From Peredibacter starrii (GTDB taxonomy: Bacteria > Bdellovibrionota > Bacteriovoracia > Bacteriovoracales > Bacteriovoracaceae), in contig NZ_CP139487.1 of assembly GCF_034259205.1 (NCBI RefSeq), positions 1,054,001 through 1,118,000 on the forward strand: 64,000 nt of DNA, written 5' to 3'. Position numbers and translations under genes: made by a program. Under the pieces are notes generated by a model. That model was given only the letters and a program-made list of their open reading frames with translations, was not told where the DNA came from and did no database searches. How positions within the stretch are numbered: position 1 is the stretch's first letter; every line of letters starts with the position of its first letter. Positions 9,310 to 49,700 of the stretch are shown one piece after another.

Positions 9310-9338
9310 TTGAGTTTGTATCCTGCGGGTGCTAAATT
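9310..9338 (+). promoter_or_regulatory. Predicted sigma-70-type promoter of the nuo operon
   Basis: TTGAGT (9310-9315), a 17-bp spacer and TAAATT (9333-9338) lie 31 bp before nuoA. A TTG start at 9310 would place the coding region over this promoter, which supports the downstream ATG at 9370 as the real nuoA start. Confidence 0.55.
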
Positions 9339-9369
9339 ATGGCCATTCATTTTTTCCCACAGGGTGCTT

Positions 9370-9759: not shown

Positions 9760-9769
9760 GAGCATATTT

Positions 9770-12167: not shown

Positions 12168-12182
12168 GAGAGAGACACACAT

Positions 12183-15584: not shown

Positions 15585-15595
15585 GAGTTGGTGAT

Positions 15596-16663
15596 ATGGA
15601 ATATTTTGATTTTATTCAGCTGATTGCAAAAATTCTTTTCGTAGTTGCCGTGTGCTTGTCGGTAGTACCAGTAATGGTATGGTTTGAGCGCCGTGGTTCT
15701 GCATGGATGCAAGGTCGAGTAGGCCCTAACCGTGTTGGACCGTTTGGTCTTCTTCAACCGCTTGCTGACGTGTTCAAGTTCTTCTGTAAAGAAGACTTCA
15801 CTCCAGGTAACGCTAATAAATTTTACTACTACCTCGCTCCAATGGTTGCGTTGATTGCACCTCTATGTGCACTTGCAGTCATCCCATTCGGTAGCAAGGC
15901 CATCATTATGGGTCAGGAAGTTAACCTTCAAATTGGTAACTTCGATTCAGGTGTAATCTTCATTCTTGCTTTCGCAGGCCTTGAAGTTTACCCGCTGATT
16001 CTTGCTGGTTGGGCATCGAAGAACAAGTACTCAGTACTTGGTGCTCTTCGTGGTTCATCACAAATCGTTTCGTACGAGATCGCAATGGGTCTGGCACTTC
16101 TATCAATGATGGTGGTGTACGGATCATTTAATCCTCACGATATGGTTTCTTGGCAACAGAAGCACTACTGGGGAGCTTTAATCAACCCAATCGGTGCTCT
16201 TGTTTTCTGGATCTCGATCTTCGCAGAAACTAACCGTCTTCCTTTCGACTTACCTGAAGGTGAATCGGAAATCGTTGCTGGTTACCACCTTGAGTACGGT
16301 GCGATGAAATTCGCCCTGTTCTTCATGGCCGAGTACGTAGCGATGATTATGGCGTCTGCTCTCATCGCAACTCTGTTCTTCGGTGGATACGGAATCCTTC
16401 CGGGAATGAGCTTCGCGATCAATATGATTGTAGAACAATTCGGCTGGGGTGAAGTTGGTCTTCAAAACACGACTGCAGTGTTTGAGTTCCTGAGCTTCTT
16501 CACGAAAGTTGCTGTGTTCATGTTCATCTTCGTATGGGTACGTTGGACACTTCCACGTTTCCGTTTTGACCAGCTAATGGATTTGGGTTGGAAGATCCTT
16601 TTCCCGCTGTCACTTATTAACCTTGTGGCCGTCACTCTTGGCGTCTACTTTTTGAATCAATAG
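15596..16663 (+). CDS. nuoH: Complex I subunit H, membrane quinone-channel subunit
   Basis: A 355-residue multi-helix subunit linking quinone chemistry to the pumps. Signature segments are ERRGSAWMQGRVGPNRVGP and AETNRLPFDLPEGESEIVAG with its acidic loop. It follows nuoG after 11 bp and is intact by length. Confidence 0.97.
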   Translation: MEYFDFIQLIAKILFVVAVCLSVVPVMVWFERRGSAWMQGRVGPNRVGPFGLLQPLADVFKFFCKEDFTPGNANKFYYYLAPMVALIAPLCALAVIPFGSKAIIMGQEVNLQIGNFDSGVIFILAFAGLEVYPLILAGWASKNKYSVLGALRGSSQIVSYEIAMGLALLSMMVVYGSFNPHDMVSWQQKHYWGALINPIGALVFWISIFAETNRLPFDLPEGESEIVAGYHLEYGAMKFALFFMAEYVAMIMASALIATLFFGGYGILPGMSFAINMIVEQFGWGEVGLQNTTAVFEFLSFFTKVAVFMFIFVWVRWTLPRFRFDQLMDLGWKILFPLSLINLVAVTLGVYFLNQ

Positions 16664-16672
16664 GAGGGCTTT

Positions 16673-17194
16673 GTGGGAACTATCAATATTTCAAAGAAGT
16701 ACACCGCTAAAGAAAAAGCCTATATCCCGGCAATTCTTGTTGGTCTGAAAATCACAATGAAACACTTCATTAAGGGTTTCTTTTTCAGACATCACAATAC
16801 TGTTATGTATCCTGAAGTGAAGCGTGATTACTCTGATCGTTTCAGAGGTAAACACTTCATCTCGGTTGACGCTAATAAAACTGAAAACTGTACTGCTTGT
16901 TACCTTTGCGAAACTATCTGTCCAGCTGAGTGTATCCACATCGTGGCGGACGAGCGTGAAGAAGAGAACAACCCATACGGAGTGAAGAAAGAGAAGAAGC
17001 CAGTAAGCTTCGATATCGATGCTCTTCGTTGTTGTTTCTGTGGTTTCTGTGAAGAGGCCTGTCCAAAAGACGCGATCAAGCTTTCTGGAAACTATGAGAT
17101 GGCAGTATCTGCACGTCAGGACGCTATCTACGATCTTGATCTTCTTAAGCGTGATATGAACGGCAGAAAAGAAAAGACTGAGGTGAAGAAATGA
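16673..17194 (+). CDS. nuoI: Complex I subunit I, two 4Fe-4S clusters (N6a/N6b)
   Basis: An eight-Cys ferredoxin-like subunit. Motif 1 is C73-x2-C76-x2-C79-x3-C83-P; motif 2 is C120-x2-C123-x2-C126-x3-C130-P. The GTG start has a strong AGGAGGG site 4-5 bp upstream. The length of 173 aa is normal, and it overlaps nuoJ by 4 nt. This intact copy contrasts with the half-motif version at 45.5 kb. Confidence 0.97.
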   Translation: MGTINISKKYTAKEKAYIPAILVGLKITMKHFIKGFFFRHHNTVMYPEVKRDYSDRFRGKHFISVDANKTENCTACYLCETICPAECIHIVADEREEENNPYGVKKEKKPVSFDIDALRCCFCGFCEEACPKDAIKLSGNYEMAVSARQDAIYDLDLLKRDMNGRKEKTEVKK

Positions 17195-17715
17195 ATCCTA
17201 TCATCCTAGTGCTGGGAGTAATCTCAGCGATTCTAGCTGTTAACATGCTAATTGCTAAAAACCCGATCACATCTGCAATGAGCCTTCTTGGTATCCTTCT
17301 TATGTCGGCCGGTATCTACGCTATGATCGGCGAGCACTTCATCGCAACTATTCAGTTAGTTGTTTATGCCGGTGCGATCATGGTTCTTTTCATTTTCTCA
17401 ATCATGCTTCTTAACCTTTCTGATTCTGAAAGCGAGCTTAAGCGTAACCCTGGTATTTTCGCCGGTGCGGTTGCTCTAGGTCTTGGTCTTTTCGGTTTCA
17501 TTGGCTACGCCATCAACGAGCACTTCCTGAATCACCGTAATGATGTGATTCCTGGTCAGTTCACTCCGGACGTTATCAACCAACTTGGTGGTAACTCAAA
17601 AGTTATGGCCCACTCACTGTTCACTCAGTACTACGTTTCTTTCGAAGTGATCACTCTGGCACTTCTGGTTGCGGTAGTGGGTGCAGTAGTACTAGCAAAA
17701 AGAAAATTTGATTAG
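17191..17715 (+). CDS. nuoJ: Complex I subunit J
   Basis: A five-helix membrane subunit of 174 aa with the conserved IQLVVYAGAIMVLFIFSIML helix that contains the pi-bulge region of TM3. It overlaps nuoI by 4 nt (ATGA). Family length and order are standard. Confidence 0.96.
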   Translation: MNPIILVLGVISAILAVNMLIAKNPITSAMSLLGILLMSAGIYAMIGEHFIATIQLVVYAGAIMVLFIFSIMLLNLSDSESELKRNPGIFAGAVALGLGLFGFIGYAINEHFLNHRNDVIPGQFTPDVINQLGGNSKVMAHSLFTQYYVSFEVITLALLVAVVGAVVLAKRKFD

Positions 17716-17724
17716 GAACTTAAT

Positions 17725-18027
17725 ATGACAAACGAATTATACATTCAGCTTTTGGCCGCCTTCCTATTCACAATGGGTGTGCTAGTAGTTCTTCTTCGTC
17801 GTGACACTATTATGGTGCTTATGGGGATCGAGCTTCTTCTTAACGCTGCCAACTTATCACTGGTCGCTTTCTCGAAGACGAATTCAATGATTGATGGACA
17901 GCTTCAGGTGCTTTTCGTGATCGCACTTGCGGCGGCAGAATCAGCAGTTGGTCTTTCGATTCTGGTAAACCTTTACCGTAACTTCGGATCGATCAAAACT
18001 CAAAACGCAACAACTCTTAAAGGATAA
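17725..18027 (+). CDS. nuoK: Complex I subunit K
   Basis: A 100-residue three-helix subunit homologous to MrpC. The key membrane Glu residues are visible in MGIELLLNAANL and in the third helix (AAAESAVGLSIL). It has the expected length and overlaps the nuoL start by 1 nt. Confidence 0.96.
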   Translation: MTNELYIQLLAAFLFTMGVLVVLLRRDTIMVLMGIELLLNAANLSLVAFSKTNSMIDGQLQVLFVIALAAAESAVGLSILVNLYRNFGSIKTQNATTLKG

Positions 18028-20009
18028 TGAACGTGGAAACGATGAACTCCCTGCTACCACTTCTTATTTTAATCTCGCCTTTGATCGGTTTCATGATCAA
18101 TGGTGTGGTTCTCCCGCTAAAGCTTAAGGGCTTTGCTAAGACTGATCCAAATGTTGCCGGTGGTTTCGCCACTTTCTTCATTTTCTTGTCTTTCGTGATG
18201 GGCTGTATCGCTTTCTCACAACTGACTGGATCAACTTCTGAAAATCCTGCTGTTTATACTTACGTGTTCCAGTGGTTTGATTTCGGTGGTCTGAATATCC
18301 CTTTCGAACTTCGTATCGATAAGCTTTCAGGAATTCTGGTTCTGATCATCTCAGGTGTAGGAACTTTGATTCACCTTTACTCAACAAGCTATATGCACGA
18401 TGAAGAGTGTGTTGGTCGTTACTTCTCGTACCTGAACCTCTTCTGTTTCTGTATGTTACTTCTCGTTATGGGTAACAACCTTCCACTTCTTTTCTTCGGA
18501 TGGGAAGGTGTAGGTCTTTGTTCATATCTTCTGATCGGTTTCTGGTACACAGATACTGAAAAAGCGAACGCAGGTAAAAAAGCTTTCGTAGTTAACCGTG
18601 TAGGGGACCTTGGTTTCCTAATCGGTATGTTCCTTCTTTTCCGCGAACTAGGAACTCTATCTCTGACTGAAATCAATACGATGCTTGCTGATCCAACAGT
18701 TGTTGCTCGTATCATGCCTTCAGTGACTCTTATCTGTTTGGCCCTTTTCGTAGGTGCTACAGGTAAATCAGCCCAGATTCCTCTATATGTTTGGCTTCCA
18801 GATGCGATGAGCGGTCCGACTCCGGTTTCTGCTCTCATCCACGCTGCTACCATGGTAACTGCTGGCGTTTATATGATCGCTCGTCTGAACCCTCTGTTCG
18901 AGCTTTCTCCGGTTGCTCTTGAAGTCATCGCGCACGTTGGTGCTTTCACAGCGCTGTTCGCTGGCTCAATTGCCATCGCTCAGACCGACATCAAGAAGGT
19001 TCTTGCTTACTCAACTGTTTCTCAACTTGGTTTCATGTTCCTTGCTTGTGGTGTTGGTGCTTACCAAACTGCAGTATTCCACCTAATGACTCACGCTTTC
19101 TTTAAAGCGCTTCTGTTCCTAGGTTCTGGTTCAGTGATCCACGCTTGTTCTGGTGAACAAGATATGACGAAGATGGGCGGACTTAAGAAGTACTTACCTC
19201 ATACGCATTTCACAATGCTTATCGGGTCACTTGCTATCTCTGGTATTCCGTTCTTCTCAGGTTTCTTCTCAAAAGACGAAATCCTTTATTCTTCAATCGC
19301 ACTTCCTGGCGGCGTTTCGTACCTATTCCTTGTAGGTGTTCTAACAGCTGCTCTAACTGCGATTTATACAGGTCGTATGATGTCTCTTACTTTCTACAGT
19401 GAAGAGAGAATGTCTCATGATGTGAAACATCACCTTCATGAGTCACCAGCACTTATGACTTTCCCACTTTACGTTCTTGCCTTCCTTGCGGCGTTTGGTG
19501 GATTCCTTGGTGTTCCTCACTTACTAGGTGACTACCTTGGACACATGCCTCACTTCCTATCTCACTGGTTAGCTCCAGTGGTTCCAGCGAAGCACCTTCC
19601 TCTGGTTGGTGTGAAAATGCCTCTTCACGAGGGTGTAGTTATGGCCGGATCTTCAGTGATCGCCATCGCTTCATTCTTCGGTGGGGTAGCGCTGTTTAAA
19701 AAGATCACATTCATTTCTGATCTCGTAAGCGGTCTTGCTCCGGTTCAGAAACTTCTTTCTAACAAGTACTACATTGATGAGCTTTACGGCGTAATCGTTG
19801 TAAACCCAGTTAAGAAGATCTCAGCTTTCGCGGCCGGAATTGTTGATAAGTATGTTGTTGATGGTGCCGTTAACGGTCTAGGTCGCGGAGTTCGTGCAGT
19901 TGGCTCGACTCTTCGTGCGGTTCAGACTGGTGACCTTCAGACATACGGACTGATGATGCTAGGAGGAGTACTCCTGGTAGCGCTCTTCATTTTTAAAGTA
20001 CTGGTTTAA
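18027..20009 (+). CDS. nuoL: Complex I antiporter-like subunit L
   Basis: The distal Mrp-type pump subunit, 660 aa, with about 16 helices including the C-terminal lateral helix. Signature stretches are GWEGVGLCSYLLIGFWY (catalytic Glu), LPDAMSGPTPVSALIHAATM (key Lys/His region) and the FFSGFFSKDEI loop. The start ATG overlaps nuoK; in-frame alternatives a few codons downstream exist. Confidence 0.96.
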   Translation: MNVETMNSLLPLLILISPLIGFMINGVVLPLKLKGFAKTDPNVAGGFATFFIFLSFVMGCIAFSQLTGSTSENPAVYTYVFQWFDFGGLNIPFELRIDKLSGILVLIISGVGTLIHLYSTSYMHDEECVGRYFSYLNLFCFCMLLLVMGNNLPLLFFGWEGVGLCSYLLIGFWYTDTEKANAGKKAFVVNRVGDLGFLIGMFLLFRELGTLSLTEINTMLADPTVVARIMPSVTLICLALFVGATGKSAQIPLYVWLPDAMSGPTPVSALIHAATMVTAGVYMIARLNPLFELSPVALEVIAHVGAFTALFAGSIAIAQTDIKKVLAYSTVSQLGFMFLACGVGAYQTAVFHLMTHAFFKALLFLGSGSVIHACSGEQDMTKMGGLKKYLPHTHFTMLIGSLAISGIPFFSGFFSKDEILYSSIALPGGVSYLFLVGVLTAALTAIYTGRMMSLTFYSEERMSHDVKHHLHESPALMTFPLYVLAFLAAFGGFLGVPHLLGDYLGHMPHFLSHWLAPVVPAKHLPLVGVKMPLHEGVVMAGSSVIAIASFFGGVALFKKITFISDLVSGLAPVQKLLSNKYYIDELYGVIVVNPVKKISAFAAGIVDKYVVDGAVNGLGRGVRAVGSTLRAVQTGDLQTYGLMMLGGVLLVALFIFKVLV

Positions 20010-20020
20010 GGAATATTGAC

Positions 20021-21574
20021 ATGGAAAATTCTTGCTTACTTTCATGGATCATTTTTACGCCGCTTCTCTTCGCGTTCCTGGTAATGATTTTACCAAAGAG
20101 CATGGAGCATCTTTTTCGTAAGATCGCTTTAGTTCAAACGCTAGTAAGTGCGCTTATTGCTACTTATCTCTACTCTCGTTTCGATGGTGGAGTTGCTGGA
20201 GCTCAACTGACTCACCTGGTGCCTTGGCTTCCGGAGTGGGGGATTAACTATCTCGTTTCAATCGACGGTATCAGCCTTCCACTTGTAATGCTTACTGCAT
20301 TCGTTGGTCCGGTTGCTATCCTAGGAACTTGGCCTGATCTTTCTCACGGTGCTCAGCTTAAGAAAGAGAAGTTCTTCGTTATGTGTATCATGGCCCTTCA
20401 AACGGGTATGTACGGAACGTTCCTTTCAGCTGACCTCTTCTTGTTCTACTTCTTCTGGGAAGTGGTTCTAATCCCGATGTTCTTCATGATCGGTATTTGG
20501 GGTGGTAAAGATCGTATCTACGCAACTGTGAAGTTCTTCCTTTATACAATGGTGGGCTCACTTCTTATGCTTGTGGCGATCTTCTGGTTGATTAAGACGT
20601 CTGCTGAAGGCAATGGAACTCCATCTGCTGCTTACGAGACTCTTTCTGGCCTTAGTTTTGCTTTTGACGGTTCTTCTTTTGGTGCTGCACTTACTTCACC
20701 ACAAAGCTTACTGTTCCTTGCGTTCGCTCTTGCCTTCGTGATCAAGGTTCCAATGGTTCCTTTCCACACTTGGCTTCCGGATGCTCACGTACAAGCTCCA
20801 ACTGTTGGTTCAGTGTTCCTGGCCGCAGTTCTTCTTAAAATGGGTACATACGGTCTAATGCGTATCGCGATTCCGTTTTTTCCTCAAGCTGCCCACTACT
20901 TCTCGAGTGTGTTTATCGCTCTTGGTGTAATCGGCATCATCTATGGTGCTTTCTGTGCTCTCGCTCAGACAGACTTCAAGAAACTGGTTGCTTACTCTTC
21001 AGTTTCTCACATGGGTTACATCGTAGTTGGTCTTTTCTCTTTCCAGAAAATTGCAATTGCTGGTTCTCTTTACCAAATGATCAACCACGGTATTTCTGCC
21101 GGCGGTCTGTTCATGGTAGTAGGGTTCCTTTATGAAAGACTTCATACTCGTAACCTTGAAGACTTCGGTGGACTTGCGAAAGTTGTTCCTCTGATGGCGA
21201 TTGGTTTCATGATCATGACTCTTTCTTCAGTAGCACTTCCTGGTTCGAACGGTTTCGTTGGGGAGTTCCCAATTCTTCTTGGTGCTTTCCAGGTTCACCC
21301 GTTCTTCGTTCTATTCGCTGGAACTGGTGTAATTCTTGGTGCGGTTTACGCACTTAAGGCCTACCAGATGGTTATGCTTGGACCAAAAACTCGTACGGAT
21401 CTTGAACACCTTCACGATCTTAACTGCAGAGAAATTATCGCCATGGGCGTTCTGACAGTGTTCGTTTTCGGAATTGGTTTCTTCCCGAAAACTTTCTTCT
21501 GGAAATCAGACGCTGCCCTTGATGTTTACTCGAATACTCTTATTCAGAAAGTAGGTACATATGCTACTAAATGA
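20021..21574 (+). CDS. nuoM: Complex I antiporter-like subunit M
   Basis: The middle Mrp-type pump subunit, 517 aa, about 14 helices. FYFFWEVVLIPMFFMIGIWG holds the conserved Glu, and PFHTWLPDAHVQAPTVGSV is the broken-helix signature. It overlaps nuoN by 14 nt. Confidence 0.96.
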   Translation: MENSCLLSWIIFTPLLFAFLVMILPKSMEHLFRKIALVQTLVSALIATYLYSRFDGGVAGAQLTHLVPWLPEWGINYLVSIDGISLPLVMLTAFVGPVAILGTWPDLSHGAQLKKEKFFVMCIMALQTGMYGTFLSADLFLFYFFWEVVLIPMFFMIGIWGGKDRIYATVKFFLYTMVGSLLMLVAIFWLIKTSAEGNGTPSAAYETLSGLSFAFDGSSFGAALTSPQSLLFLAFALAFVIKVPMVPFHTWLPDAHVQAPTVGSVFLAAVLLKMGTYGLMRIAIPFFPQAAHYFSSVFIALGVIGIIYGAFCALAQTDFKKLVAYSSVSHMGYIVVGLFSFQKIAIAGSLYQMINHGISAGGLFMVVGFLYERLHTRNLEDFGGLAKVVPLMAIGFMIMTLSSVALPGSNGFVGEFPILLGAFQVHPFFVLFAGTGVILGAVYALKAYQMVMLGPKTRTDLEHLHDLNCREIIAMGVLTVFVFGIGFFPKTFFWKSDAALDVYSNTLIQKVGTYATK

Positions 21575-23039
21575 AGTTTTTCCTCTAAATCCACTTAGTG
21601 GTGTTGAGCTATTAAGCCTAACTCCGCTTTTCATCCTGGCAGTTGGCGCGATTTTGTCGCTAATTGTTGGTACCCATAAAGAGAAAGGTCACACTTTCGC
21701 TTTTGGTGTGGCGTTTGTATCTCTGGTTTCTTGCTTGTTCGTATACGCTTCGACAGCAACGATCTCAGACATTTCAATCCTTGGTGAAACTCTGATCTTT
21801 AACCCGTTCACAAAAACGATTGCAGCGATGGCCACTGGCTTTGCTTTGATCGCGGTTGTTCTGACTTACGGACAAGATAAGAAAGAAGGTCTTCTTTCTG
21901 AGATCTACGCTCTTATCCAGTTCTCGACAGCGGGTATGATCCTGATGATGTCGACTCAGCACCTTCTGTTCTTGTTCATCGCCCTTGAGATCATGTCTCT
22001 AGCGATCTACATCATGGTGGCAATGAGACGTTCAAGCCGCTTCTCAGCTGAAGCTGGTCTTAAATACTTCATCCTTGGTGGTCTAGCTTCTGCTTTCCTT
22101 CTTTATGGATCATCTCTTATCTTCGGAGCAACTGGTTCTTTCCAACTTGGTACGATCAACACGTTCCTTCTAGCTCATAACGAGCCATCGTTCATTTTCT
22201 ACGTTGGTCTTGGAATGGTACTAGTGGCGATGCTTTTCAAAGTTGGTGCGGTTCCTTTCCACGGATGGGTTCCTGACGTTTATCAAGGTGCTGCTACAAA
22301 CGTAACGGGCTTCATGGGTGCTGCAGTTAAGTTCACAGCTTTCATGGCCCTTGCTCGTATCTGCCAAAACCTAGTGTTCGTTGACAACATCGTGGCGCTA
22401 AAGTGGTTTGAAACAACAATCTACGTAATCGCCGCTGCTTCAATGATCTACGGTAACTTTGTTGCGATTTCTCAGAATGAAATTAAACGTATGCTTTCTT
22501 TCTCTACAATCGCTCACACTGGTTACCTTCTTCTTGGTCTATACGCGATGAAACTTGGTGAAGAGTCTGCTCAGTCGGTTCTTCTTTACTTGTTCTTCTA
22601 CGCTGTGGCGAACCTTGGTGCTTTCGCGGTTATTTCTCAATTCGAAGAGAAGAACCAGAAAGACCTTACTTTCGATCAGATTTCAGGCATGGGGGCAAAG
22701 CACCCGGTTCTAGGAACATTCTTCACGTTGTTCCTTCTTTCTATGGCCGGTATCCCACTTACTTCAGGTTTCATCGCGAAATACGGTCTATTCAGTTCAG
22801 CGGTTTACGCCGGAGAAATTCCTCTGGTTGTGATCGCGGTTCTAACGTCGGTAGTTTCGGTTTACTACTACCTACGCGTGATCGTTTATATGTTCATGAA
22901 AGATACAACTTCTGAAGCTGCTACTTACCAGGGTCTTAAAGGCGCTGGTTTGGCCGCTTTCTTATCAGCTGCTGCGACACTACAGTTCGGTCTTTTCCCA
23001 AGAGCGATTATTAGTTTCGTAAAAATGATTTCTAAGTAA
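21561..23039 (+). CDS. nuoN: Complex I antiporter-like subunit N
   Basis: The proximal Mrp-type pump subunit, 492 aa, about 14 helices. ALEIMSLAIYIMVAMRR and PFHGWVPDVYQGAATNVTGF are the family signatures. The N-terminus starts inside nuoM, and the gene is followed after 9 bp by the last small gene of the operon. Confidence 0.96.
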   Translation: MLLNEVFPLNPLSGVELLSLTPLFILAVGAILSLIVGTHKEKGHTFAFGVAFVSLVSCLFVYASTATISDISILGETLIFNPFTKTIAAMATGFALIAVVLTYGQDKKEGLLSEIYALIQFSTAGMILMMSTQHLLFLFIALEIMSLAIYIMVAMRRSSRFSAEAGLKYFILGGLASAFLLYGSSLIFGATGSFQLGTINTFLLAHNEPSFIFYVGLGMVLVAMLFKVGAVPFHGWVPDVYQGAATNVTGFMGAAVKFTAFMALARICQNLVFVDNIVALKWFETTIYVIAAASMIYGNFVAISQNEIKRMLSFSTIAHTGYLLLGLYAMKLGEESAQSVLLYLFFYAVANLGAFAVISQFEEKNQKDLTFDQISGMGAKHPVLGTFFTLFLLSMAGIPLTSGFIAKYGLFSSAVYAGEIPLVVIAVLTSVVSVYYYLRVIVYMFMKDTTSEAATYQGLKGAGLAAFLSAAATLQFGLFPRAIISFVKMISK

Positions 23040-40078: not shown

Positions 40079-41683
40079 TTAGTTACAAGTTTTCCCGAAT
40101 AAACTTCCTGTACCTGGTGATCCACCTTGGTTACAAGTAACTACCAGACCAACATTTCCCCCAGTCCAGATGTTAGCACTCGCTGAAACACTTGTGATGT
40201 TCCAGTTCGTGGCGTTCAATGATGTTAAGTCCATAGTAGTTCCAAACATGCGAGTCATGTCGGTGACTGAAGACGTATTGAAGTTCGAAAGATCGAGCGA
40301 AACTAAATTCAGGGCCTGATAGAACATATAAGACATATCAGTCACAGATGAAGTGTTGAAGCTTGAAAGATCAAGTGAGGACAGTGCATTCATTCCACTA
40401 AACATATAGCTCATATTAGTCACGGCAGAAGTATTAAAATTTGATAGATTGACAGTTGTTATATAAAGCATGCTTTTAAACATTTCTTGCATGTCTGTAA
40501 CCGACGAAGTGTTAAAACTGGAAAGATTTAATGTCGTCGTTTGAGAAGAGTGAAACATTCTTCCCATTTTGGTTACTGAACTCGTATTAAAGTTTGAAAG
40601 ATTAAGAGTTGGCGCGCCGTTAGTATCAAACATTCCGCTCATATCAGTCACTGCTGCTGTATTAAAGCTTGAAAGATTAAGAGTCGTTAAGCTATTAGTT
40701 CCGTAGAACATATTACTCATATTAGTAACGGCCGCAGTATTGAAGTTGGATAAATCTAACGAAGGCATTCGCCATAACCGATAGAACATTCCACTCATGT
40801 CAGTCACTGCTGCAGTATTAAAGTTTGAAAGGTCTAGTGCTGTGAATTCTTCGCAGCTACGAAACAAATTACTCATATTAGTCACGGCCGCAGTGTTGAA
40901 GTTTGAAACATCAATTGATGCTAATTGTCTCATGCCTTCAAACATTGAACTCATATTTGTCACGGCCGCAGTATTAAAGTTTGAAACATCGAGTGAAGTT
41001 ATGTCAGTAAGTTCTCCGAACATGAATTCCATGTTCGTTACCTTAGAAGTGTCAAAGCTTGAAACATCCAGGGTAGTGATGCCCGCCCAGCCAAACATAT
41101 AACTCATATCGGTTACATTAGAGGTTTTGAAGCTAGAAAGATCAGGAGAACTCAAACTCCAGTTATCCATAAACATGCCACTCATGTTAGTCACATCAGT
41201 CGTATCCCCACCTGCAAATGAAGTCAGTTGATCACAACCAGCAAAGGCCATTTCGAGATTTTTCCAACCAAGATGTCCAAAATCTACGACTTCGATGATT
41301 TTAGACATGTCAGCTGAGTAAGCGAAATACCAGGCCTCTGCAGTTCCTGTTATGGTCACGGTGTAGACACCCGCAGCTGAGTAAGAGTGAGTTTTATCTA
41401 AATCAGTATCAGAAGTAACTTCACTCACCGGACTTCCATCACCCCAATCTACTTCAAAGTTGTAGTTGAAACCTGCTCGCAGAGGCAGCGTGATAGTTTC
41501 ATTGGGAGCAAGGGTCTGCCATTTAGAAATGAATGGCGTGTGCGGTCTATTAGAACTTGGATTGGGAGCAGGAGTAGGGGTTGAACCGCTTCCGCCAGAG
41601 GAGCCACCAGTGGTGATTTTGATGTCTTTTAAGCAGCCGCTAGTTGTGATCAAAATTAAAATGAAGAATATGATTCTGATCAC
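40079..41683 (-). CDS. BspA-like lipoprotein with 13 DUF285-type repeats
   Basis: A 534-residue lipoprotein (TTSGC, Cys17) with a Ser/Gly/Pro linker, a PKD-like segment (VDWGDGSP), 13 repeats of about 25 residues from residue 156 to 490, and the same Cys-containing C-terminal cap as its neighbour (CNQGGSPGTG...C). It lacks the Ig-like domain of the paralogue. Pairs of Cys near the end probably form a disulfide that closes the solenoid. It probably acts as an outer-membrane adhesin, by analogy with BspA proteins. Confidence 0.85.
   Translation of the reverse strand: MIRIIFFILILITTSGCLKDIKITTGGSSGGSGSTPTPAPNPSSNRPHTPFISKWQTLAPNETITLPLRAGFNYNFEVDWGDGSPVSEVTSDTDLDKTHSYSAAGVYTVTITGTAEAWYFAYSADMSKIIEVVDFGHLGWKNLEMAFAGCDQLTSFAGGDTTDVTNMSGMFMDNWSLSSPDLSSFKTSNVTDMSYMFGWAGITTLDVSSFDTSKVTNMEFMFGELTDITSLDVSNFNTAAVTNMSSMFEGMRQLASIDVSNFNTAAVTNMSNLFRSCEEFTALDLSNFNTAAVTDMSGMFYRLWRMPSLDLSNFNTAAVTNMSNMFYGTNSLTTLNLSSFNTAAVTDMSGMFDTNGAPTLNLSNFNTSSVTKMGRMFHSSQTTTLNLSSFNTSSVTDMQEMFKSMLYITTVNLSNFNTSAVTNMSYMFSGMNALSSLDLSSFNTSSVTDMSYMFYQALNLVSLDLSNFNTSSVTDMTRMFGTTMDLTSLNATNWNITSVSASANIWTGGNVGLVVTCNQGGSPGTGSLFGKTCN
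40210..41218 (-). repeat. Thirteen tandem DUF285/Listeria-type repeats (coding)
   Basis: About 1 kb of imperfect 72-78-bp repeats with the FNTAAVTNMSxMF core; several neighbouring units are nearly identical at the DNA level, so slipped-strand or recombinational change in copy number is possible. Confidence 0.85.
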
Positions 41684-42008: not shown

Positions 42009-43499
42009 ATGCTATTGAGATTATGTCAATTGAAAAGCCTGATTCTAATTGCATTCCTGCTCATTACAGTGAGCGCATGTTCTTGGCGTAAAGAACCTAA
42101 ACCAAGTTCAACCGAGCTGGTGTCGTTTTTTTCCAATAATTGGTTTAGCGTAAATCCAAATCATTCACTTGTCGGACAGAATGGAGAACCAGTGTCCCAC
42201 ATGATGTTCGATACCACTCCTGAATTTAATCAGAGTGAGCGCACGGTGAATGTTCTCATCGCTACTCCGCAAAGATCTGAACACGCTTATCAGTATGATT
42301 TAAATTCCGGTCAGCGCTTTTACTCTCACACTTACTGTAAACAAAAAGACATTTGGCACAAGCATGAGGGATCACTTCATCGTCCGCCTTTTGCCATTGG
42401 ATATATTCCAAGAGTTCTGGATCAATTAGGGGAACCGCAAAAGATCATCGTTTTCTCTAATCGCAGTAACTATGCTTCTGCAGTCGCTTATAACTATTTC
42501 AAAACGAAAATCGTCGGTGCTTACGTCGAACAAATTTGTCCGGAAGGAAATTGCATCGGAAAGAGCAATTGGCTCTCACGACTGGTTTTTATTGGAGTTG
42601 ATGAAGAAGACACATCCCTTGCTCCCATTAATACAGTCGCCGATTTCGCCCAGGTATTTAAGTGGGAGAGTGCTAAGGCCCACTTGGAAAACCTTGATGG
42701 CCTTAACTCCATTGGTGATGAACTCTACCCATCAATTCGAATTGGAAATTTAATTGAATACAATGAGGCCTTCGATTTCTTTAAGAAACGCTCTATCTTC
42801 CTGACTGACGTTGAGCTTAAAAAAATCCAGAAAGGTTGTTACGCTCTCTATGATTCTTTGTGGGACGATGTAGGAAAAGAGCGTCCGGAAGACAAGAGCG
42901 CGATGACCAAAGAAGAAATGAAGAGCAAAGTCAAACTCATTGAAGAAATGAAGAAGAAAAAACTCCCGATCGGTTTTGCTGCTCGTTTGGGTGTCTTCAC
43001 AAAAAAGTATTACAACGAAATTTCGACTTGCGAAAAGTTTGTTTATCACGGAAATATCAACCGAGATCGTGAGAAGTTTTGGTTCCTGAGTTACATGGGG
43101 ATTTACTTCCGTCTTCACCGTGAAGGCTACTTCTATGATTGTCGAAGTAAGACCTGGAAGCGCAACACTTTGAACGCTCAGGGCGAGCTGGTTTACGATC
43201 TAAAAGCAGAAATTGGGGAATGTAAGGACGCTGACATTGATCGCGCCATGGAATATCTGCCTAATTTCCTCTCCGGCATCAAAGGGGAGAAAGAATTCTA
43301 CAAATTTCTTGAGTACGATAATTATACTTTTGGGACCCACCAGAAGCTTTATTCCTGGGTGAGAGTTAAGGCCCGTCGCTTTGATTGTGGAAAAGATCCG
43401 AACATTGAAGTCAGAAAAGAAACTCGCGTTTTTCCGGAAGAGGTTTCGTGGAAAGTCCGCTATAACAAAGATACCTACGACGATAAGATTATTTACTAA
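42009..43499 (+). CDS. Lipoprotein of unknown function heading the NuoB/CD/I-like operon
   Basis: A 496-residue lipoprotein with a signal peptide and lipobox VSAC (Cys24). The mature part is rich in aromatic and charged residues and has seven or more scattered Cys but no CxxCH heme motif, known cofactor motif or repeat. I do not recognise the family. Its stop TAA overlaps the ATG of the NuoB-like gene by one base (TAATG), and the following genes are all tightly packed, so it is probably part of the same transcriptional unit. Confidence 0.7.
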   Translation: MLLRLCQLKSLILIAFLLITVSACSWRKEPKPSSTELVSFFSNNWFSVNPNHSLVGQNGEPVSHMMFDTTPEFNQSERTVNVLIATPQRSEHAYQYDLNSGQRFYSHTYCKQKDIWHKHEGSLHRPPFAIGYIPRVLDQLGEPQKIIVFSNRSNYASAVAYNYFKTKIVGAYVEQICPEGNCIGKSNWLSRLVFIGVDEEDTSLAPINTVADFAQVFKWESAKAHLENLDGLNSIGDELYPSIRIGNLIEYNEAFDFFKKRSIFLTDVELKKIQKGCYALYDSLWDDVGKERPEDKSAMTKEEMKSKVKLIEEMKKKKLPIGFAARLGVFTKKYYNEISTCEKFVYHGNINRDREKFWFLSYMGIYFRLHREGYFYDCRSKTWKRNTLNAQGELVYDLKAEIGECKDADIDRAMEYLPNFLSGIKGEKEFYKFLEYDNYTFGTHQKLYSWVRVKARRFDCGKDPNIEVRKETRVFPEEVSWKVRYNKDTYDDKIIY

Positions 43500-43891
43500 T
43501 GAAAGAAACAGCCAAAGTTTATAAAGTCTACCAACTCTCGAATCCTCTCATGAATACTGAGTGGCCGGCAGTTTTGGGTGATAAGTTTCATAAGGCCCTG
43601 TCATTTGAATGGGCCACAACCACCGATTTTAAAGAGGCCGACATTGTGGTTTGGGACGGAGTAATCAGTCCTAAATCGGCCGCACTTTTAAGTCCTCTCA
43701 TTGAAGAGCTAAAACAAAATAAAGTTTTACTCCTGGTGGGAGAATCAATGACCTCACTTCGAAATCACCCGATGGTTAAATTAGTATCAGCCGAAGGTCT
43801 TCGTTATGTGGAATTATCCGGATGGGGCGTTTTACCCGAAGAGGTTTTGGGCGCACTCGAGGCCTGTCACCAAAAGTTGACTCATGTTTAA
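43499..43891 (+). CDS. NuoB-like protein without cluster N2 ligands
   Basis: A 130-residue protein that aligns by eye with the central part of NuoB. ADIVVWDGVISPKSAALLSPLI matches [22 protein letters not shown] of the local NuoB, then VLLLVGES matches WVIAMGAC, and GWGVLPEEVLGAL matches [13 protein letters not shown]. The N-terminal CC pair is absent, the third ligand is S83 and the fourth is W109; the only Cys is C123 in the tail. It therefore cannot bind N2. It is 70 residues shorter than NuoB and overlaps the NuoCD-like gene by 8 nt. The homology call rests on manual alignment and gene order. Confidence 0.7.
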   Translation: MKETAKVYKVYQLSNPLMNTEWPAVLGDKFHKALSFEWATTTDFKEADIVVWDGVISPKSAALLSPLIEELKQNKVLLLVGESMTSLRNHPMVKLVSAEGLRYVELSGWGVLPEEVLGALEACHQKLTHV

Positions 43892-45518
43892 TTGGAAAGA
43901 ATTCGAAAAAACTAAGCAGGTCCTTTCTCACGTTGGCGGTCGCCGTTATCGTGATGATTGGGGACAACATCATTTGACAGTGAGACCAACTGAGCTGATT
44001 GATTGGATCGAGCTGATTAAAGAAGATTTGAATTATCTCACTCTCGCAGAAATCGCGGCGGTGGAAAATAATATCGATAAAGAGTATCGCTTTGAATTGG
44101 TGTATCACTTCCTTAACATGGGAACTCACCAACGACTCAATCTTCATCTTTTGGTGAATGAAGGCGAAATCATCCCTTCGGTGAAGAACTATTATCTTCA
44201 GGCGGACTGGATGGAACGAGAACAGGCAGAAATGCTGGGTCTTACTTTTGATCGTCCGACTCCGGCCCTTCTTTTGCCGGAAGGTCAAAAAAACTTCCCG
44301 CTTCGTAAAAAGAGCGAAGTGAAAACCTGGCCGGAAGAAAGACCCCTTGAATTTCCAAAACTACGCATGAATCCGAATAAATCGGAAGCTCCTTATCCGG
44401 AAGAAAGTTATCAGTGGAAACAGTTTGATATCTTCTCTCCAGTGAGCGCGGGTAACTTTGAATGGTCAGTCTGTTTTGATCCAGTCAAAGTCGTAGACAC
44501 TCGTCTTCGTGTGGGATTTCATCACCAGGGTCTGGAACTGTTCTTACAGAACAAAGACATTCTACAAGTGCTTCAGCTGGCAGATAAAATCAATATCAGT
44601 GCGGCCCCGAATTATTCAATCGCTTGGGCAAAGACCATTGAAGAGATGTTCCGAATTAAAATTCCAGAACGCGCTCAGGCCATTCGTATTGTGATGCTCG
44701 AGCTTGCTCGAATCGCTGATCACCTTACGGTGCTCGCGGAAATTTGCCGAAACGCCGGCCAGAGTGAATTCACTCTTTTCATCAATGCTCGAGAAAAGAT
44801 CAACGAGCTCTTTGAAAAGTTTTGTGGTCACAGACAAGGTCTTGGCATTGCTCGTATCGGGGGAGTGAAGGAAGATCTTCCTCACGGCTGGATTGTAGAG
44901 TATCAGGCAGTGGCAGAAATTCTTTCAAAGAATCTTCCTGTCATTCATAAATCGCTCATTGGTCAGAACAATTTCCGTTCTCACACCGATGGTGATCCGG
45001 TGAACGCTCAATCGGTGCTTCAATGGGGAGTTACTGGTCCCACTATGCGTGCGGCCGGATTAAACTTCGACCTTCGTAAATCGCAACCGTTTTATTTTTA
45101 TCAGGATATCGATTTTGATATTCCAGTTGGCATTCATGGGGCGATTTATGATCGCTACCTCATCCGTTACGAAGAGATTCATCAAAGTTTTCGCATTATC
45201 ACTCAGGTAATTGATAACCTTCCATTAGGTGATTTCATCAATGGTATGTATGATAAAAACTATGTTGAGTTGCTTAAGCTCTTCGAAGGTGCCGATGCTC
45301 CAACACAATGGCATTACGGCGCTTTGGAAACTTCGAATGGAGAAGCGGGCTTTTTGCTTAACTTCAATGGAACACCAAAACCTGCGCGTATAAAACTAAA
45401 GACTCCGAGCTTTGCTGTAGCACAAGCGCTACAGGTATTTGCCAAGGGACTTCGTGAAGATCAACTCGCAACTTGTTTGGCCAGCTTGAATCTTTCGCGT
45501 TGGGAAATGGATCGATAA
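43884..45518 (+). CDS. NuoC-NuoD fusion paralogue lacking the quinone-binding His and Tyr
   Basis: Residues 1-150 match NuoC: ADWMEREQAEMLGLTFDRP and FPLRKK stand for [15 protein letters not shown] and HPLRKE. Residues from about 185 match NuoD: GFHHQGLEL, AQAIRIVMLELARIADHL, GPTMRAAGLNFDLRKSQP and C-terminal EMDR. HPATHG, which carries the quinone-binding His, is replaced by SPVSAG, and the Tyr in TDRLNY is an Ile (ADKINI). There is no CxxC, so it is not a NiFe hydrogenase subunit. Length 544 aa. It overlaps the NuoB-like gene and lies 3 bp before the NuoI-like gene. Confidence 0.88.
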   Translation: MFNWKEFEKTKQVLSHVGGRRYRDDWGQHHLTVRPTELIDWIELIKEDLNYLTLAEIAAVENNIDKEYRFELVYHFLNMGTHQRLNLHLLVNEGEIIPSVKNYYLQADWMEREQAEMLGLTFDRPTPALLLPEGQKNFPLRKKSEVKTWPEERPLEFPKLRMNPNKSEAPYPEESYQWKQFDIFSPVSAGNFEWSVCFDPVKVVDTRLRVGFHHQGLELFLQNKDILQVLQLADKINISAAPNYSIAWAKTIEEMFRIKIPERAQAIRIVMLELARIADHLTVLAEICRNAGQSEFTLFINAREKINELFEKFCGHRQGLGIARIGGVKEDLPHGWIVEYQAVAEILSKNLPVIHKSLIGQNNFRSHTDGDPVNAQSVLQWGVTGPTMRAAGLNFDLRKSQPFYFYQDIDFDIPVGIHGAIYDRYLIRYEEIHQSFRIITQVIDNLPLGDFINGMYDKNYVELLKLFEGADAPTQWHYGALETSNGEAGFLLNFNGTPKPARIKLKTPSFAVAQALQVFAKGLREDQLATCLASLNLSRWEMDR

Positions 45519-45521
45519 ACT

Positions 45522-45899
45522 ATGATTCTAAATCGTAATTTTTATAGCAAAATTTCAGTTTTACGCGCGATGTGGAACAATCGCCAGGCCAAAAAATTGA
45601 CTGGAGAAAAGGTTTTTAAGGCCTTTAAACTGCATAAAACAGAGTGGCCTAATAAGCTTTATTTCTATTCGCCTCGTCTCAAAAGAATTCCTCGATTTAC
45701 TGGTAATTCCGCGCTCTTGGCCAACTGGAAAGAGTCTAAACTCTGTGAGACAATGTGCCCGACTCAAGCGATTAAAGTGACGGCATCCGCCTTCATAATT
45801 GATGATCGTGGATGTATAGCTTGCGGCCTATGTGTTGAACTAGCTCCTCCCGGAATACTAGAGATGACATCAGAACCTCCTCGTCTACATCAGTCTTGA
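45522..45899 (+). CDS. NuoI-like ferredoxin with one predicted 4Fe-4S cluster
   Basis: A 125-residue NuoI relative. The first Cys motif is reduced to C75-x3-C79-P: positions -6 and -3 are W69 and S72. The second is C98-x2-C101-x2-C104 with the fourth Cys replaced by A108. In two-cluster ferredoxins one cluster uses the first three Cys of motif 2 plus the CP Cys of motif 1, and that full set (C98, C101, C104, C79) is kept. The other cluster is lost. The N-terminal part up to residue 64 resembles the NuoI lead segment (EWPNKLYFYSPRLKR). It is followed by the desaturase after 12 bp. Confidence 0.85.
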   Translation: MILNRNFYSKISVLRAMWNNRQAKKLTGEKVFKAFKLHKTEWPNKLYFYSPRLKRIPRFTGNSALLANWKESKLCETMCPTQAIKVTASAFIIDDRGCIACGLCVELAPPGILEMTSEPPRLHQS

Positions 45900-45911
45900 T
45901 AAGGATTTGTC

Positions 45912-46994
45912 ATGATCAAATTGATTTCAACGTTAGCACTGGCATACGGTGCCTCGTTCTTCTTCATTTCAAAAACAATCGGAGTTAATGGTTTCTTCGG
46001 TGATTTAATCGCCGCTCATCCATTCATCATCCTGAGTATTTATGCCTTAGTGGTTGCTCACGTAACAATCACCGCCATGAGTTTATCGTTTCACCGCTAT
46101 CACACTCACAAAGGCGTGATCATTAATAAGTGGGTCGATATGCCCATGCAGGTTTGGTTATGGATGGTGACGTCACTCTCTAAAGTTGATTGGGTATCAG
46201 TTCATATCTGGCACCACGCTCATTCAGATCAGGAAAAAGATCCGCATAGCCCGCTTCAAAAAGGTCTGGTTCACGCTCTATTCTTAGGAGTGTTTGATTA
46301 CACTCGTGCTAAGTCCTGGCCGGAAGTTATGAAGATCAAGAAAACGATTCCAACGAATAAACTGGAAAAGTTCATGTTCAATAATTCATTCACAGGTCCC
46401 ATCATTCTGACAGGACTTATGATGGTTATGTTCGGGCCACTTTGGGGTGGACTAGTATCAATCCTTAACTTCTTAGTTTCTCCGATCTTCGCGATTGGTG
46501 GAGTAAACGCTCTTGCTCACTGGTGGGGATACAGAAACCATGTAACAACGGATAACAGCCGTAACCTTGGTTTCCTTTTACCGCTTAACTTCATCATTTG
46601 TGGTGAGCTTGATCACAATAATCACCACGCTCACATGCGTTCGTGTTCATTCCGCCACCGTTGGTTTGAATTCGACATTGGTTTCTTCTATTTGAAGATG
46701 CTGAATAAGTTTAAACTGGCCGAACTTAAAAACGTTTATTCTCCGGCAACTCTTAAAGAAGAGTTCAGCCAGAAGTTTGCTGAATTGATTGAAAAAGATC
46801 ACCGCTTCAAAAAACGTTGTGAAGAACTAGCGGCGGAATTGAATCTTAACTATCAGGATTTAAAACTTAAAATCGAGGCCTACTGGCGCGGTGAAAAAGT
46901 AAAACTTGAAAAGTCAGTACGTGTGTTTATGCGTGAAGTTCGTCGTACTTATATGGCCAACCAACGTCTTAAACTGAGCTACGCTCACGCTTAA
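45912..46994 (+). CDS. Membrane fatty-acid (acyl-CoA-type) desaturase
   Basis: An integral membrane di-iron desaturase of 360 aa. The three His boxes are HRYHTH, HIWHHAHSD and HNNHHAH, with NALAHWWGYRNH supplying the extra His. Four hydrophobic helices surround them. Family members insert a double bond (commonly delta-9) using O2 and two electrons from ferredoxin, cytochrome b5 or a flavoprotein. A C-terminal extension of about 90 mostly helical, basic residues follows the catalytic core. It is the last gene of the NuoB/CD/I-like operon. Confidence 0.92.
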   Translation: MIKLISTLALAYGASFFFISKTIGVNGFFGDLIAAHPFIILSIYALVVAHVTITAMSLSFHRYHTHKGVIINKWVDMPMQVWLWMVTSLSKVDWVSVHIWHHAHSDQEKDPHSPLQKGLVHALFLGVFDYTRAKSWPEVMKIKKTIPTNKLEKFMFNNSFTGPIILTGLMMVMFGPLWGGLVSILNFLVSPIFAIGGVNALAHWWGYRNHVTTDNSRNLGFLLPLNFIICGELDHNNHHAHMRSCSFRHRWFEFDIGFFYLKMLNKFKLAELKNVYSPATLKEEFSQKFAELIEKDHRFKKRCEELAAELNLNYQDLKLKIEAYWRGEKVKLEKSVRVFMREVRRTYMANQRLKLSYAHA

Positions 46995-47668
46995 AAAATC
47001 GTTTTCTTCTCTCTCGTCCAGTCGACCTGTTGTAATTCACGCAGGAAATCTGGACGAGAAATATAAATCCCTCCAAATTGTTCCACTACCGGCGTCACCA
47101 TTTGAGTGTCGATCCAGTTTATTCCTTTGGATTCAAGATGCGAAATAAGCGTGTAAAAACCTTGTTTAGCGGCGTTGTCCTCAATCGTGAACATAGACTC
47201 GCCTGAAATAAAATCTCCCATCACAACGCCGTATAAACCGCCCACAATGCGAGTTCCATCCCACACCTCAACTGAGTAGGCGAGGTCTTGTTGAAATAGC
47301 TTTTCATAAGCACGCGTGATTCCCGGAGTGATCCAGGTGCCGGGCTGATCTTTTCTGACCATCTTGGCACAGTTATGAATCACCTGCGTGAATGCCTGAT
47401 TAAAGGTCACGGTATAAGGAGTTTTCTTCAGAAATTTCACAAACGAGCGCGAGACGTGTAGGCGATCAAAAAACAGCACGCCTCTGGGATTAGGTGAAAA
47501 CCAGGTATTAGGAAGTTCTCGATTCAAAGGCCAGGTAGATAGTGGCCAAGGGAAAATTCCTCGGCGATAGGCCTCAATCAGCGTATCAACTTCAAGATCT
47601 CCTCCGACAGCAACAAGCCCATCTTCATTGGCCGTGTCTACCGGAGGGAAGACGATCTTTCTTTTCAT
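46991..47668 (-). CDS. aat: Leucyl/phenylalanyl-tRNA-protein transferase
   Basis: Aat adds Leu or Phe to proteins with N-terminal Arg/Lys, marking them for ClpS/ClpAP. Signature: WFSPNPRGVLFFDRLHVSR, GTWITPGI, VGGLYGVVMGDFISGESMF and WIDTQMVTPVVEQFGG. The length of 225 aa is typical. The ATG overlaps the stop of the preceding ureohydrolase gene by 4 nt (ATGA). Confidence 0.95.
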   Translation of the reverse strand: MKRKIVFPPVDTANEDGLVAVGGDLEVDTLIEAYRRGIFPWPLSTWPLNRELPNTWFSPNPRGVLFFDRLHVSRSFVKFLKKTPYTVTFNQAFTQVIHNCAKMVRKDQPGTWITPGITRAYEKLFQQDLAYSVEVWDGTRIVGGLYGVVMGDFISGESMFTIEDNAAKQGFYTLISHLESKGINWIDTQMVTPVVEQFGGIYISRPDFLRELQQVDWTREKKTIF

Positions 47669-48738
47669 TTGGCGAGTACTTCCAGAAGAACGCGGGCCAT
47701 GTCTCCGGCCACTGTGAGCGAACTTTGCTGGTCACGAGGTTCAACTCCCGCGGGCCACACAAATGGTGCCACTTCCATCAAGTCAGCTCCGGTGATTTTA
47801 AAATCATCTGAAAGAAGACGAAGAAGAGCAGCGCAATCAGTCGGTGAAAGACCTTCTTTCTCCGGAGTACCAGTTGCAGCAGCAAACTTTTCATCCAGAG
47901 CATCGATATCAAAACTCACGTAGACTTCTTCCACACCGAGTTTTTTATATTGATCACGAATCTTCTTATAAGTTTTTTCAACTCCCCATTTAATCACTTC
48001 ATGGGCCCAAAGCTGTTCAACTCCAGTGTGCTCTTTCCAATACTTCTTGGTTTTACCACTTGAGCGAATTCCCACTTGAACCACGTGATCAGGAGTCGCA
48101 AGGTGTTCCAGAATCTGATACGTCCAGGTCCCGAAACAAATATCAATGCCTAATCGGCGATCTAAAAGATCAGTGTGAGCATCAAAGTGGAGCAACGCCG
48201 CTTTCTTTAAGTTCTTACGGCTCTCGAGCCACGCTTTCACCAGAGGGTAACTGGTTGAGTGATCTCCCCCAAAACCTAGAATGCGCGCAGAAGGATGGGC
48301 CTTATATAAATCATGAAGAGCACGTTCCGCGATACTCAGAGGAGAAACCGGAAGTTTATTCGCCTTACCGTAAAGTGCTTTACGACAAAGTTTAAGCGTC
48401 TCATCGTTCAAATATTTATCGTGAAGCAGGTGAGGGATCACTCGCACGTCACCGAGGTCCAAAAAATTTTTATGCTGAGAGAGAATTTCCTGACGAAGAA
48501 CCAATGGTCCCCAGTTTGCACCTCTTTGAATTCCGCCGCCATTATCAGAAGGAATACCAATCACCCACGGACGATCCGGGGTCATCTTTTGAAAAGTTTT
48601 ACTCCACTTTGCTTTTGCCTTCTCTACGTCTTTTGTTCCGTAATAGGCCTGCATCAGTTTTTCTTTTTTCTCTTTCCCGGTGTTCACTGTGAAGACACCG
48701 TTACCCGGTAGAGTTAAAAGTTGTTCAATCTCTTTCAA
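47665..48738 (-). CDS. Ureohydrolase (arginase/agmatinase/formimidoylglutamase family)
   Basis: A binuclear manganese enzyme of about 357 aa. Metal sites are FGGDHST, FDAHTDLLD and SFDIDALDE, with ATGTPEKEGL after it. The exact substrate is unclear: it differs from the SpeB homologue at 53.5 kb by a longer N-terminus and by DE for the usual DP after the third site. TTG at 48738 is the likely start: AAAGGAG lies 7 bp upstream and TTGA overlaps the stop of the dehydrogenase gene; a GTG at 48759 is the alternative. Confidence 0.85.
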   Translation of the reverse strand: MKEIEQLLTLPGNGVFTVNTGKEKKEKLMQAYYGTKDVEKAKAKWSKTFQKMTPDRPWVIGIPSDNGGGIQRGANWGPLVLRQEILSQHKNFLDLGDVRVIPHLLHDKYLNDETLKLCRKALYGKANKLPVSPLSIAERALHDLYKAHPSARILGFGGDHSTSYPLVKAWLESRKNLKKAALLHFDAHTDLLDRRLGIDICFGTWTYQILEHLATPDHVVQVGIRSSGKTKKYWKEHTGVEQLWAHEVIKWGVEKTYKKIRDQYKKLGVEEVYVSFDIDALDEKFAAATGTPEKEGLSPTDCAALLRLLSDDFKITGADLMEVAPFVWPAGVEPRDQQSSLTVAGDMARVLLEVLAK

Positions 48739-49700
48739 ACTAGCACTCCTTTGATCCACTTATTCTGCAAGAGTTCCTTCTCATATTTTGCAAAGAATTC
48801 ATTTTCATCCAGTTCTTGAAAGTCGCGAAGGACGGACTTCTCGAACTCGAGAATTTTATCATCTAAGTTTTTTTCCACACCGGCGATATGACTGGTCTTC
48901 CACACCTGAGGAAAGCCATGCCAATCTTCACCGAAGGGTTCTTTCTCAAACACATCCAGAAAGGCAAAGGACTTGGGATGAGTGAGAAGATATTCTTTAA
49001 GGCTTTTCTCTTCCACGAGCTTCCCGCGAGCACCGTTGATAAACAGCACTTCATCTGAAAGCGAATCGAAAAACTCTTTATTAAACATGTGACGAGAATA
49101 TTGATTAAGACTTGTGGCCGTAATGATCACTCGGGCCTCTGAAAGATTTCCCTGGCGCCAATCCGGAAGAAGTTTATGCGGGCAATGCTTGATGAATGGA
49201 TCAACCACTGTGACCTTCATGCCTAAAACACTAAGTGTGTCCGCGATGACTTTTCCAATGTGACCATATCCGAAGACCCAAGCCGGAGTATCTTTTAAAA
49301 GGGTGCGGTCCCACTTTCGGTCTTTGTTCCATGAAAGATGTTGAGGCAGTTCCTGCAGCCCTTCAAATACTGCTCCAATGGAGTACTCGGCCACTGCCTG
49401 AGCGCGGATGGTATGGCCCACCACCAGCGGGATGTTTTTCCAGAGCGCATGCTCCCCAGTAAAATGATCATAGCCCGAATTAGGATGAATAATCAGAACC
49501 GTCTGTTTTAAGAGGTCCTCTGGAATGTCTGCTAGTTGGGTATGAGTATTAGTCACCAGAATGGTTTTAAGGTCCTTAAATGAGGCAAGTGTCTCATAAT
49601 TCAGGAGCGGGAACTCCTCAACCATGGCCTTTTCATCAGAAATGAATTCCTGTCTCTGATAGGGCGATATATGAGTTCTAATGACTTGGAACCTTTTCAT
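48735..49700 (-). CDS. D-isomer-specific 2-hydroxyacid dehydrogenase family protein
   Basis: A 321-residue NAD-dependent oxidoreductase. The Rossmann motif is VFGYGHIGKVIADTL with acidic VVDPF. Catalytic residues are the Arg in INGARG, the Glu in DVFEKEPFG and the His in TSHIAG. The substrate is unknown; family members act on phosphoglycerate, glyoxylate, lactate or similar. It is first of a three-gene leftward unit with the ureohydrolase and aat, overlapping the next gene by 4 nt. Confidence 0.87.
   Translation of the reverse strand: MKRFQVIRTHISPYQRQEFISDEKAMVEEFPLLNYETLASFKDLKTILVTNTHTQLADIPEDLLKQTVLIIHPNSGYDHFTGEHALWKNIPLVVGHTIRAQAVAEYSIGAVFEGLQELPQHLSWNKDRKWDRTLLKDTPAWVFGYGHIGKVIADTLSVLGMKVTVVDPFIKHCPHKLLPDWRQGNLSEARVIITATSLNQYSRHMFNKEFFDSLSDEVLFINGARGKLVEEKSLKEYLLTHPKSFAFLDVFEKEPFGEDWHGFPQVWKTSHIAGVEKNLDDKILEFEKSVLRDFQELDENEFFAKYEKELLQNKWIKGVLV

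Follow-up and report, generated by a model that had tools for sequence, protein, structure and literature searches.

A degenerate complex I-like gene cluster of Peredibacter starrii as a candidate minimal version of a non-respiratory second complex I in Bacteriovoracaceae

Few enzymes have been studied as much as complex I, the evolution of which is commonly described as a joining of modules. The 11-subunit ferredoxin-type complex I of cyanobacteria and chloroplasts (NDH-1) and of Campylobacter contains B, C, D and I without the NADH module, and it keeps the N2, N6a and N6b clusters, the quinone site and the pumps. The nearest precedent for the locus described here is provided by the energy-converting-hydrogenase-related (Ehr) complexes, in which members of the superfamily have lost the catalytic metal site. 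Full-text searches of the open literature turned up no account of a system like this one.

The window analyzed is a stretch of 64,000 nucleotides from Peredibacter starrii (contig NZ_CP139487.1 of assembly GCF_034259205.1, positions 1,054,001-1,118,000). It contains five genes coding for a lipoprotein (LIPO), NuoB-, NuoCD- and NuoI-like proteins and a desaturase (DES), which either overlap (by 1 and 8 nt) or are separated by 3 and 12 nt (Table 1). The coordinates, overlaps and gaps noted in the initial annotation were all reproduced. A full nuo operon is located 19 kb upstream of these genes. It is intact, as had been claimed, but the host genome (4.15 Mb, one contig) contains two other complex I sets besides the cluster and not one. 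The second true set consists of B-C-D-I at 3.27 Mb (L053, C1:3268600-3271400) and A-H-J-K-L-M-N at 0.28 Mb (L180, C1:279900-287600) and has no E, F or G; a lipoprotein operon (X_p5-X_p9) upstream of its B gene is partly conserved across the family. Both true sets retain the cysteines of N2 and N6 as well as the quinone pair. Across the family, the C and D genes of the full nuo operon are fused in some genomes and split in others (L151 G120, L158 G161, L159 G290). The cluster is also adjoined by a divergent gene (40079-41683, minus strand) coding for a lipoprotein-like protein with a PKD domain and DUF285 (Mycoplasma-type 'DMSxMF') repeats.

Table 1. Positions of the cluster genes and neighboring features in the window.
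Feature	Position	Strand	Basis
LIPO, 496-aa lipoprotein with predicted inorganic-pyrophosphatase fold	42009-43499	+	ORF call, model, structure search
Predicted NuoB remnant, 130 aa	43499-43891	+	profile alignment, model
NuoC-NuoD fusion, 544 aa	43884-45518	+	domain matches, tree
Predicted NuoI remnant, 125 aa	45522-45899	+	domain match, Cys ligands
DES, 360-aa membrane fatty-acid desaturase, facultative neighbor	45912-46994	+	three His boxes, DesA-like match
Flank: aat-like (46991-47668) and arginase-like (47665-48759)	46991-48759	-	names read from translations
nuo A-N operon, intact, separate, C and D unfused	9310-23039	+	

The B, CD and I genes of the cluster are homologous to those of the C/D-fused complex I (NDH-1) of Bdellovibrionota, and the relatives L040, L143 and L133 keep an intact set at the locus. 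The cluster, however, has no E, F or G gene in or beside it, and it lacks N2, N6a, the quinone His/Tyr pair and a linked membrane arm. A ferredoxin-type set is present in the same genome (L053 plus L180) but is distinct from the cluster on the tree. The candidate of a [NiFe] hydrogenase large subunit was ruled out, as no CxxC motif was found anywhere in the NuoCD fusion. In contrast to the group 4 [NiFe] hydrogenases and Ehr complexes, the fusion groups with NuoCD and is devoid of CxxC pairs; the sites for pumping, quinone and Fe-S clusters are disappearing as well.

Matches to the Complex1_30kDa (1.4e-19) and Complex1_49kDa (3.1e-56) domains identified the NuoCD-like protein as a true NuoC-NuoD fusion, and the NuoI remnant gave one Fer4 match. 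The NuoB remnant gave zero family-level domain matches. Its profile aligned with NuoB over 120 columns (96.5%, E 9e-10), and NuoB chains ranked first (Foldseek best 5.6e-5; Z 12) in the search with its predicted model (pLDDT 83). It should be noted that the alignment used for this model included real NuoBs and that the profile match is the more independent evidence.

The functional sites were read from an alignment with the two true complex I sets of the host. All four N2 cysteine ligands are gone from the NuoB remnant, the single Cys of which is located elsewhere. The HPxxHG motif of the fusion has become SPVSAG (44436-44453), namely, Ser and Ala stand for both histidines, and the quinone-site residues His59 and Tyr108 (bovine numbering) are replaced by Ala and Ile. 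This His/Tyr pair is retained in the intact relatives L040, L133 and L143. The NuoI remnant keeps the N6b ligands Cys79, Cys98, Cys101 and Cys104 (codon starts 45756, 45813, 45822 and 45831) together with Cys75, and N6a is lost, so the protein has the ligands of N6b only and not those of both clusters as the NuoI of complex I does. The absence of N2, the quinone pair and N6a and the presence of the N6b ligands confirm what had been noticed earlier, i.e., lost catalytic residues and one remaining Fe-S site. Judging from these sites, the gene products are likely to work unlike any complex I.

In the tree, the CD proteins of the clusters group with the intact NuoCD of two genera of the family and with the NuoCD native to other Bdellovibrionota; both other NuoD types, among them the NuoD of the nearby operon, fall elsewhere. 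The root was drawn for display only and the order of the long branches is unreliable. This grouping ruled out a duplication of the nearby nuo operon as the source of the cluster. Thus, the proposal that B, C, D and I are copies standing beside an intact nuo operon holds for the homology and for the missing NADH and pump genes, but not for the nearby operon as the original. Very likely, the cluster is instead what remains at this locus of the C/D-fused complex I native to Bdellovibrionota. Outside the family, some Bdellovibrionota (L038, L039, L045) have a second NuoB-like gene after the NuoI gene of the native nuoB-CD-E-F-G-I.

The family presents a graded series of such loci. Two genera have the lipoprotein gene and an intact nuoB-CD-E-F-G-I at the locus and a second membrane arm elsewhere. 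Remnants of F or G persist in other members, and most genera have B-CD-I only, the E-F-G genes and the quinone residues being lost and the cysteines of N2, N6a and N6b (four for N2, eight in NuoI) being retained. In the residue table, only intact operons have both residues of the quinone pair; the mildest substitutions at His59 were seen in G156 (HQRYD) and G262 (HKRYD). In G059, G078, G117, G153, G246, G088 and G103, N2 was lost while the rest of the complex was kept, and some of these genomes also have no detectable I gene.

LIPO followed by NuoB- and NuoCD-like genes occurs across the family. Since the aat and arginase genes of the aat-arg-dh flank mostly follow downstream, the clusters appear to sit at one ancestral locus. 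The fusion was found in 17 of the 18 sampled genomes of the window's genus, and the order LIPO-B-CD-I surrounds it in those inspected; the gene set is therefore not a product of chance. The search in relatives recovered the gene set throughout the genus and in the larger part of the family, and the gene order suggested earlier is conserved as far as B-CD-I is concerned, while the desaturase is optional. The CD of the host genome (G000) is 21-37% identical to that of other genera, compared with 70-77% for the D of the true complex in the same genome pairs.

A degenerate membrane arm was found at a second locus. In the genera with the intact peripheral set, a second A-H-J-K-L-M-N set lies between the first membrane arm, which it follows directly, and a TPR gene. 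In most other genera, the slot between nuoN1 and the TPR gene contains 5-7 hydrophobic ORFs in the order A-H-J-(K)-L-M-N, with similar predicted helix counts and shrinking sizes. The profiles matched the expected subunit in g16 (A 92, H 100, J 93, K 98 and N 99%), g9 (H 96%), g14 (H 81%) and g12/15 (N 98 and M 71%). Only these four sets were confident in profile matching; most of the degenerate slot ORFs showed no detectable similarity to Nuo subunits and were identified by the slot they occupy and by their order, length and hydrophobicity. The slot ORFs of the intermediates G156, G126 and G258 are 20-44% identical. The TM5 Glu and TM7 Lys of the antiporter-like subunits of the relatives are substituted at many sites, which were located by motif and for which the alignment of the most diverged rows is uncertain. 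M and N are missing from the set of g22. The slot is empty in nine genomes of the window's genus as well as in G016, which rules out a membrane arm at the usual place in this genus, and a search for another NuoH in the host genome found only the two true ones. The initial annotation had regarded a quinone module as what was copied; its subunits are indeed there, but the second arm of the relatives suggests that a whole complex I was converted.

Outside the clade of the window's genus, both the cluster and the slot ORFs are present in 49 genomes, neither in 6, the slot ORFs only in 3 and the cluster only in none (Fisher p 2e-6, with the relatedness of genomes ignored); some slots in this count run into contig ends, and one of the slot-only genomes has a completeness of 66%. 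Meanwhile, nuoN1 is absent in G132, G266, G032, G126, G258, G129, G199 and G223, all of which keep the cluster and the degenerate arm (in G266 and G032, a contig end truncates the slot). The single NuoD-like gene of G132 and G266 is the one of the cluster. These distributions point to a near-parallel retention and loss of the peripheral cluster and the degenerate arm, and the eight genomes without nuoN1 argue for an assembly independent of true complex I. One locus, L269 (G264), has five hydrophobic slot ORFs, yet no LIPO and no NuoD-like gene were found in that genome, to be explained either by a gap in the assembly or by extreme divergence. The 3' end of the slot is occupied in nearly all genomes examined by a gene for a long TPR protein with one predicted membrane helix (L180:9681-12905 and orthologs), a possible further partner of the degenerate complex.

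LIPO has a lipobox Cys24 with Ser at +2, and Ser or Ala is found at this position across the alignment. In E. coli, Ser or Ala at +2 suggests the outer membrane, and the same location is suggested for LIPO. The alignment of 55 sequences contains eight further invariant Cys, which probably form disulfides. The AF2 model (pLDDT 91, pTM 0.86) matched 6n1c (Foldseek E 7.8e-9; Z 19 over about 180 residues), i.e., LIPO shares its fold with the Family I soluble inorganic pyrophosphatases. Unlike these enzymes, LIPO is exported and lipidated, has the eight extra Cys and an extra helical part, and lacks the catalytic Asp triad (DxDPxD), the aligned loop being LGEPQK; weak Pfam pyrophosphatase matches were obtained for 6 of the 55 members. 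As modeled, LIPO is an inorganic-pyrophosphatase fold that appears catalytically dead.

LIPO was found in 82 of approximately 97 sampled genomes of the family, with one weak match outside, and a collection scan with an 11-sequence LIPO query gave 27 loci labeled Bacteriovorax, Halobacteriovorax, relatives or broader. Because LIPO persists in three genomes (G150, G248 and G234) without recognizable Nuo genes behind it, its association with the complex may in part be a matter of position. In the window's genus, there is no evident physical bridge between LIPO in the periplasm and the B, CD and I proteins in the cytoplasm. LIPO is the best genetic clue to an envelope role.

For the evaluation of selection, omega was estimated for eight genome pairs. 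The usable values were 0.05-0.18 for B, 0.03-0.10 for CD, 0.03-0.18 for I and 0.04-0.07 for LIPO, and they are rough, dS being saturated or not estimable in many comparisons and several estimates having failed. The degenerate membrane ORFs gave 0.04-0.46. All usable values of the cluster genes are far from the relaxed selection near 1 and indicate that the cluster is not decaying; together with the open frames and the conservation in relatives, they agree with the earlier view of a new role rather than decay. Pseudogene decay was ruled out by omega and the intact frames. On the whole, the sequences show descent from complex I, loss of the NADH module, the quinone residues and, in part, the pump residues, and remains kept by purifying selection.

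The losses seen in the majority of genera, the accelerated divergence and the complete loss of the complex remains in some genomes of the family would fit a duplicate on its way out. This reading is hardly credible in view of the low omega, the frames that stay open throughout the genus and in most other members of the family, the tight overlaps and the kept N6b ligands. Most members also have a true complex I, and the cluster could be imagined as an auxiliary or regulatory peripheral arm docking to the membrane arm of that enzyme; the eight genomes that keep a degenerate arm without nuoN1, and the two with a single NuoD-like gene, make this very improbable.

The initial annotation had assigned the cluster to the service of the desaturase. 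DES gave a DesA-like match of 198 bits against an equivalog cut-off of 400 (NCBIfam), so it is a related protein and not that equivalog, and it has the His boxes HRYHTH (46092), HIWHH (46203) and HNNHH (46614). If the NuoI remnant fed the di-iron centre of DES while the B and CD proteins docked, one would understand why DES directly follows the I gene in 15 of the 17 cluster-bearing genomes of the genus, why N6b is kept and why N2 is absent in every DES-linked lineage where B is readable; with the membrane arm gone in the genus and in g3, DES could replace the membrane partner. However, G236 and G226 of the same genus have LIPO-B-CD-I with the N6b cysteines and no DES ortholog in their assemblies, which are 93% and 86% complete with the locus itself intact. 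Most other genera have the cluster without DES, and of the 20 DES orthologs (>50% identity) in 95 family genomes, 13 are linked, 5 are unlinked and 2 (G302, G297) are outside that tally. The unlinked genes (G103, G088, G240, G274, G158) are located away from the cluster or in a genome without it, and in G088 and G103 the cluster has no detectable I gene. A desaturase found elsewhere without these genes as the rule would have spoken against the proposal, and this is partly the case. The role of serving the desaturase is weakened as the rationale of the cluster, and an electron platform for DES is improbable. On the tree, the window's genus, g3 and g22 form one clade in which DES is present. Its acquisition therefore probably preceded the loss of the membrane arm, and G236 and G226 probably lost DES again later; DES appears to be a late, optional addition, a neighbor or client. 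A redox enzyme in which N6a-N6b-N2 conducts electrons to a non-quinone acceptor in most of the family, the window's form being its one-cluster derivative, deserves more weight, though it is still rather unlikely. The cysteines kept in most clusters without the quinone residues and the strong selection on B and I agree with it, whereas the lineages that lost N2 while the rest stayed, some with no detectable I gene, do not. It would sharpen rather than exclude the explanation preferred here.

We consider it best, with a probability of roughly 0.75, that Bacteriovoracaceae made a second, non-respiratory complex I from the native C/D-fused complex I of Bdellovibrionota and that the cluster in the window is its most reduced form. 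The descent and the non-respiratory upkeep of the cluster are the firmest part of this explanation and are highly likely on the sequence evidence, which supports a non-respiratory scaffold. It is also somewhat better than an even chance that the whole complex I, both arms included, became a non-respiratory envelope complex kept even where real complex I is missing, with the trio of the window and its one Fe-S centre as the last stage. In most family members, there would be one membrane-bound complex with an Fe-S wire (N6a-N6b-N2) and another acceptor, and in the window's genus the B, CD and I proteins would make up a small platform in the cytoplasm that holds one [4Fe-4S] centre. For the function, our best guess is a scaffold that has kept a residual Fe-S centre. 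That the platform serves the envelope by sensing single electrons or passing them on is a doubtful guess. LIPO would be its constant genetic partner through a shared process and not through direct contact, and DES an optional client or neighbor.

The clusters represent a natural series within one family, in which the NADH module, the quinone site, the pump residues and the Fe-S clusters were lost in different lineages while the assembly appears to have been kept by selection. They also show that the automatic annotation of NuoD-like proteins as respiratory can mislead, since profiles still match the fusion as an NADH-quinone oxidoreductase. The series makes testable what the complex I scaffold does without respiration. 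The group of the hosts is known for bacterial predators, and a link of the complex to the envelope or to predation is therefore worth testing.
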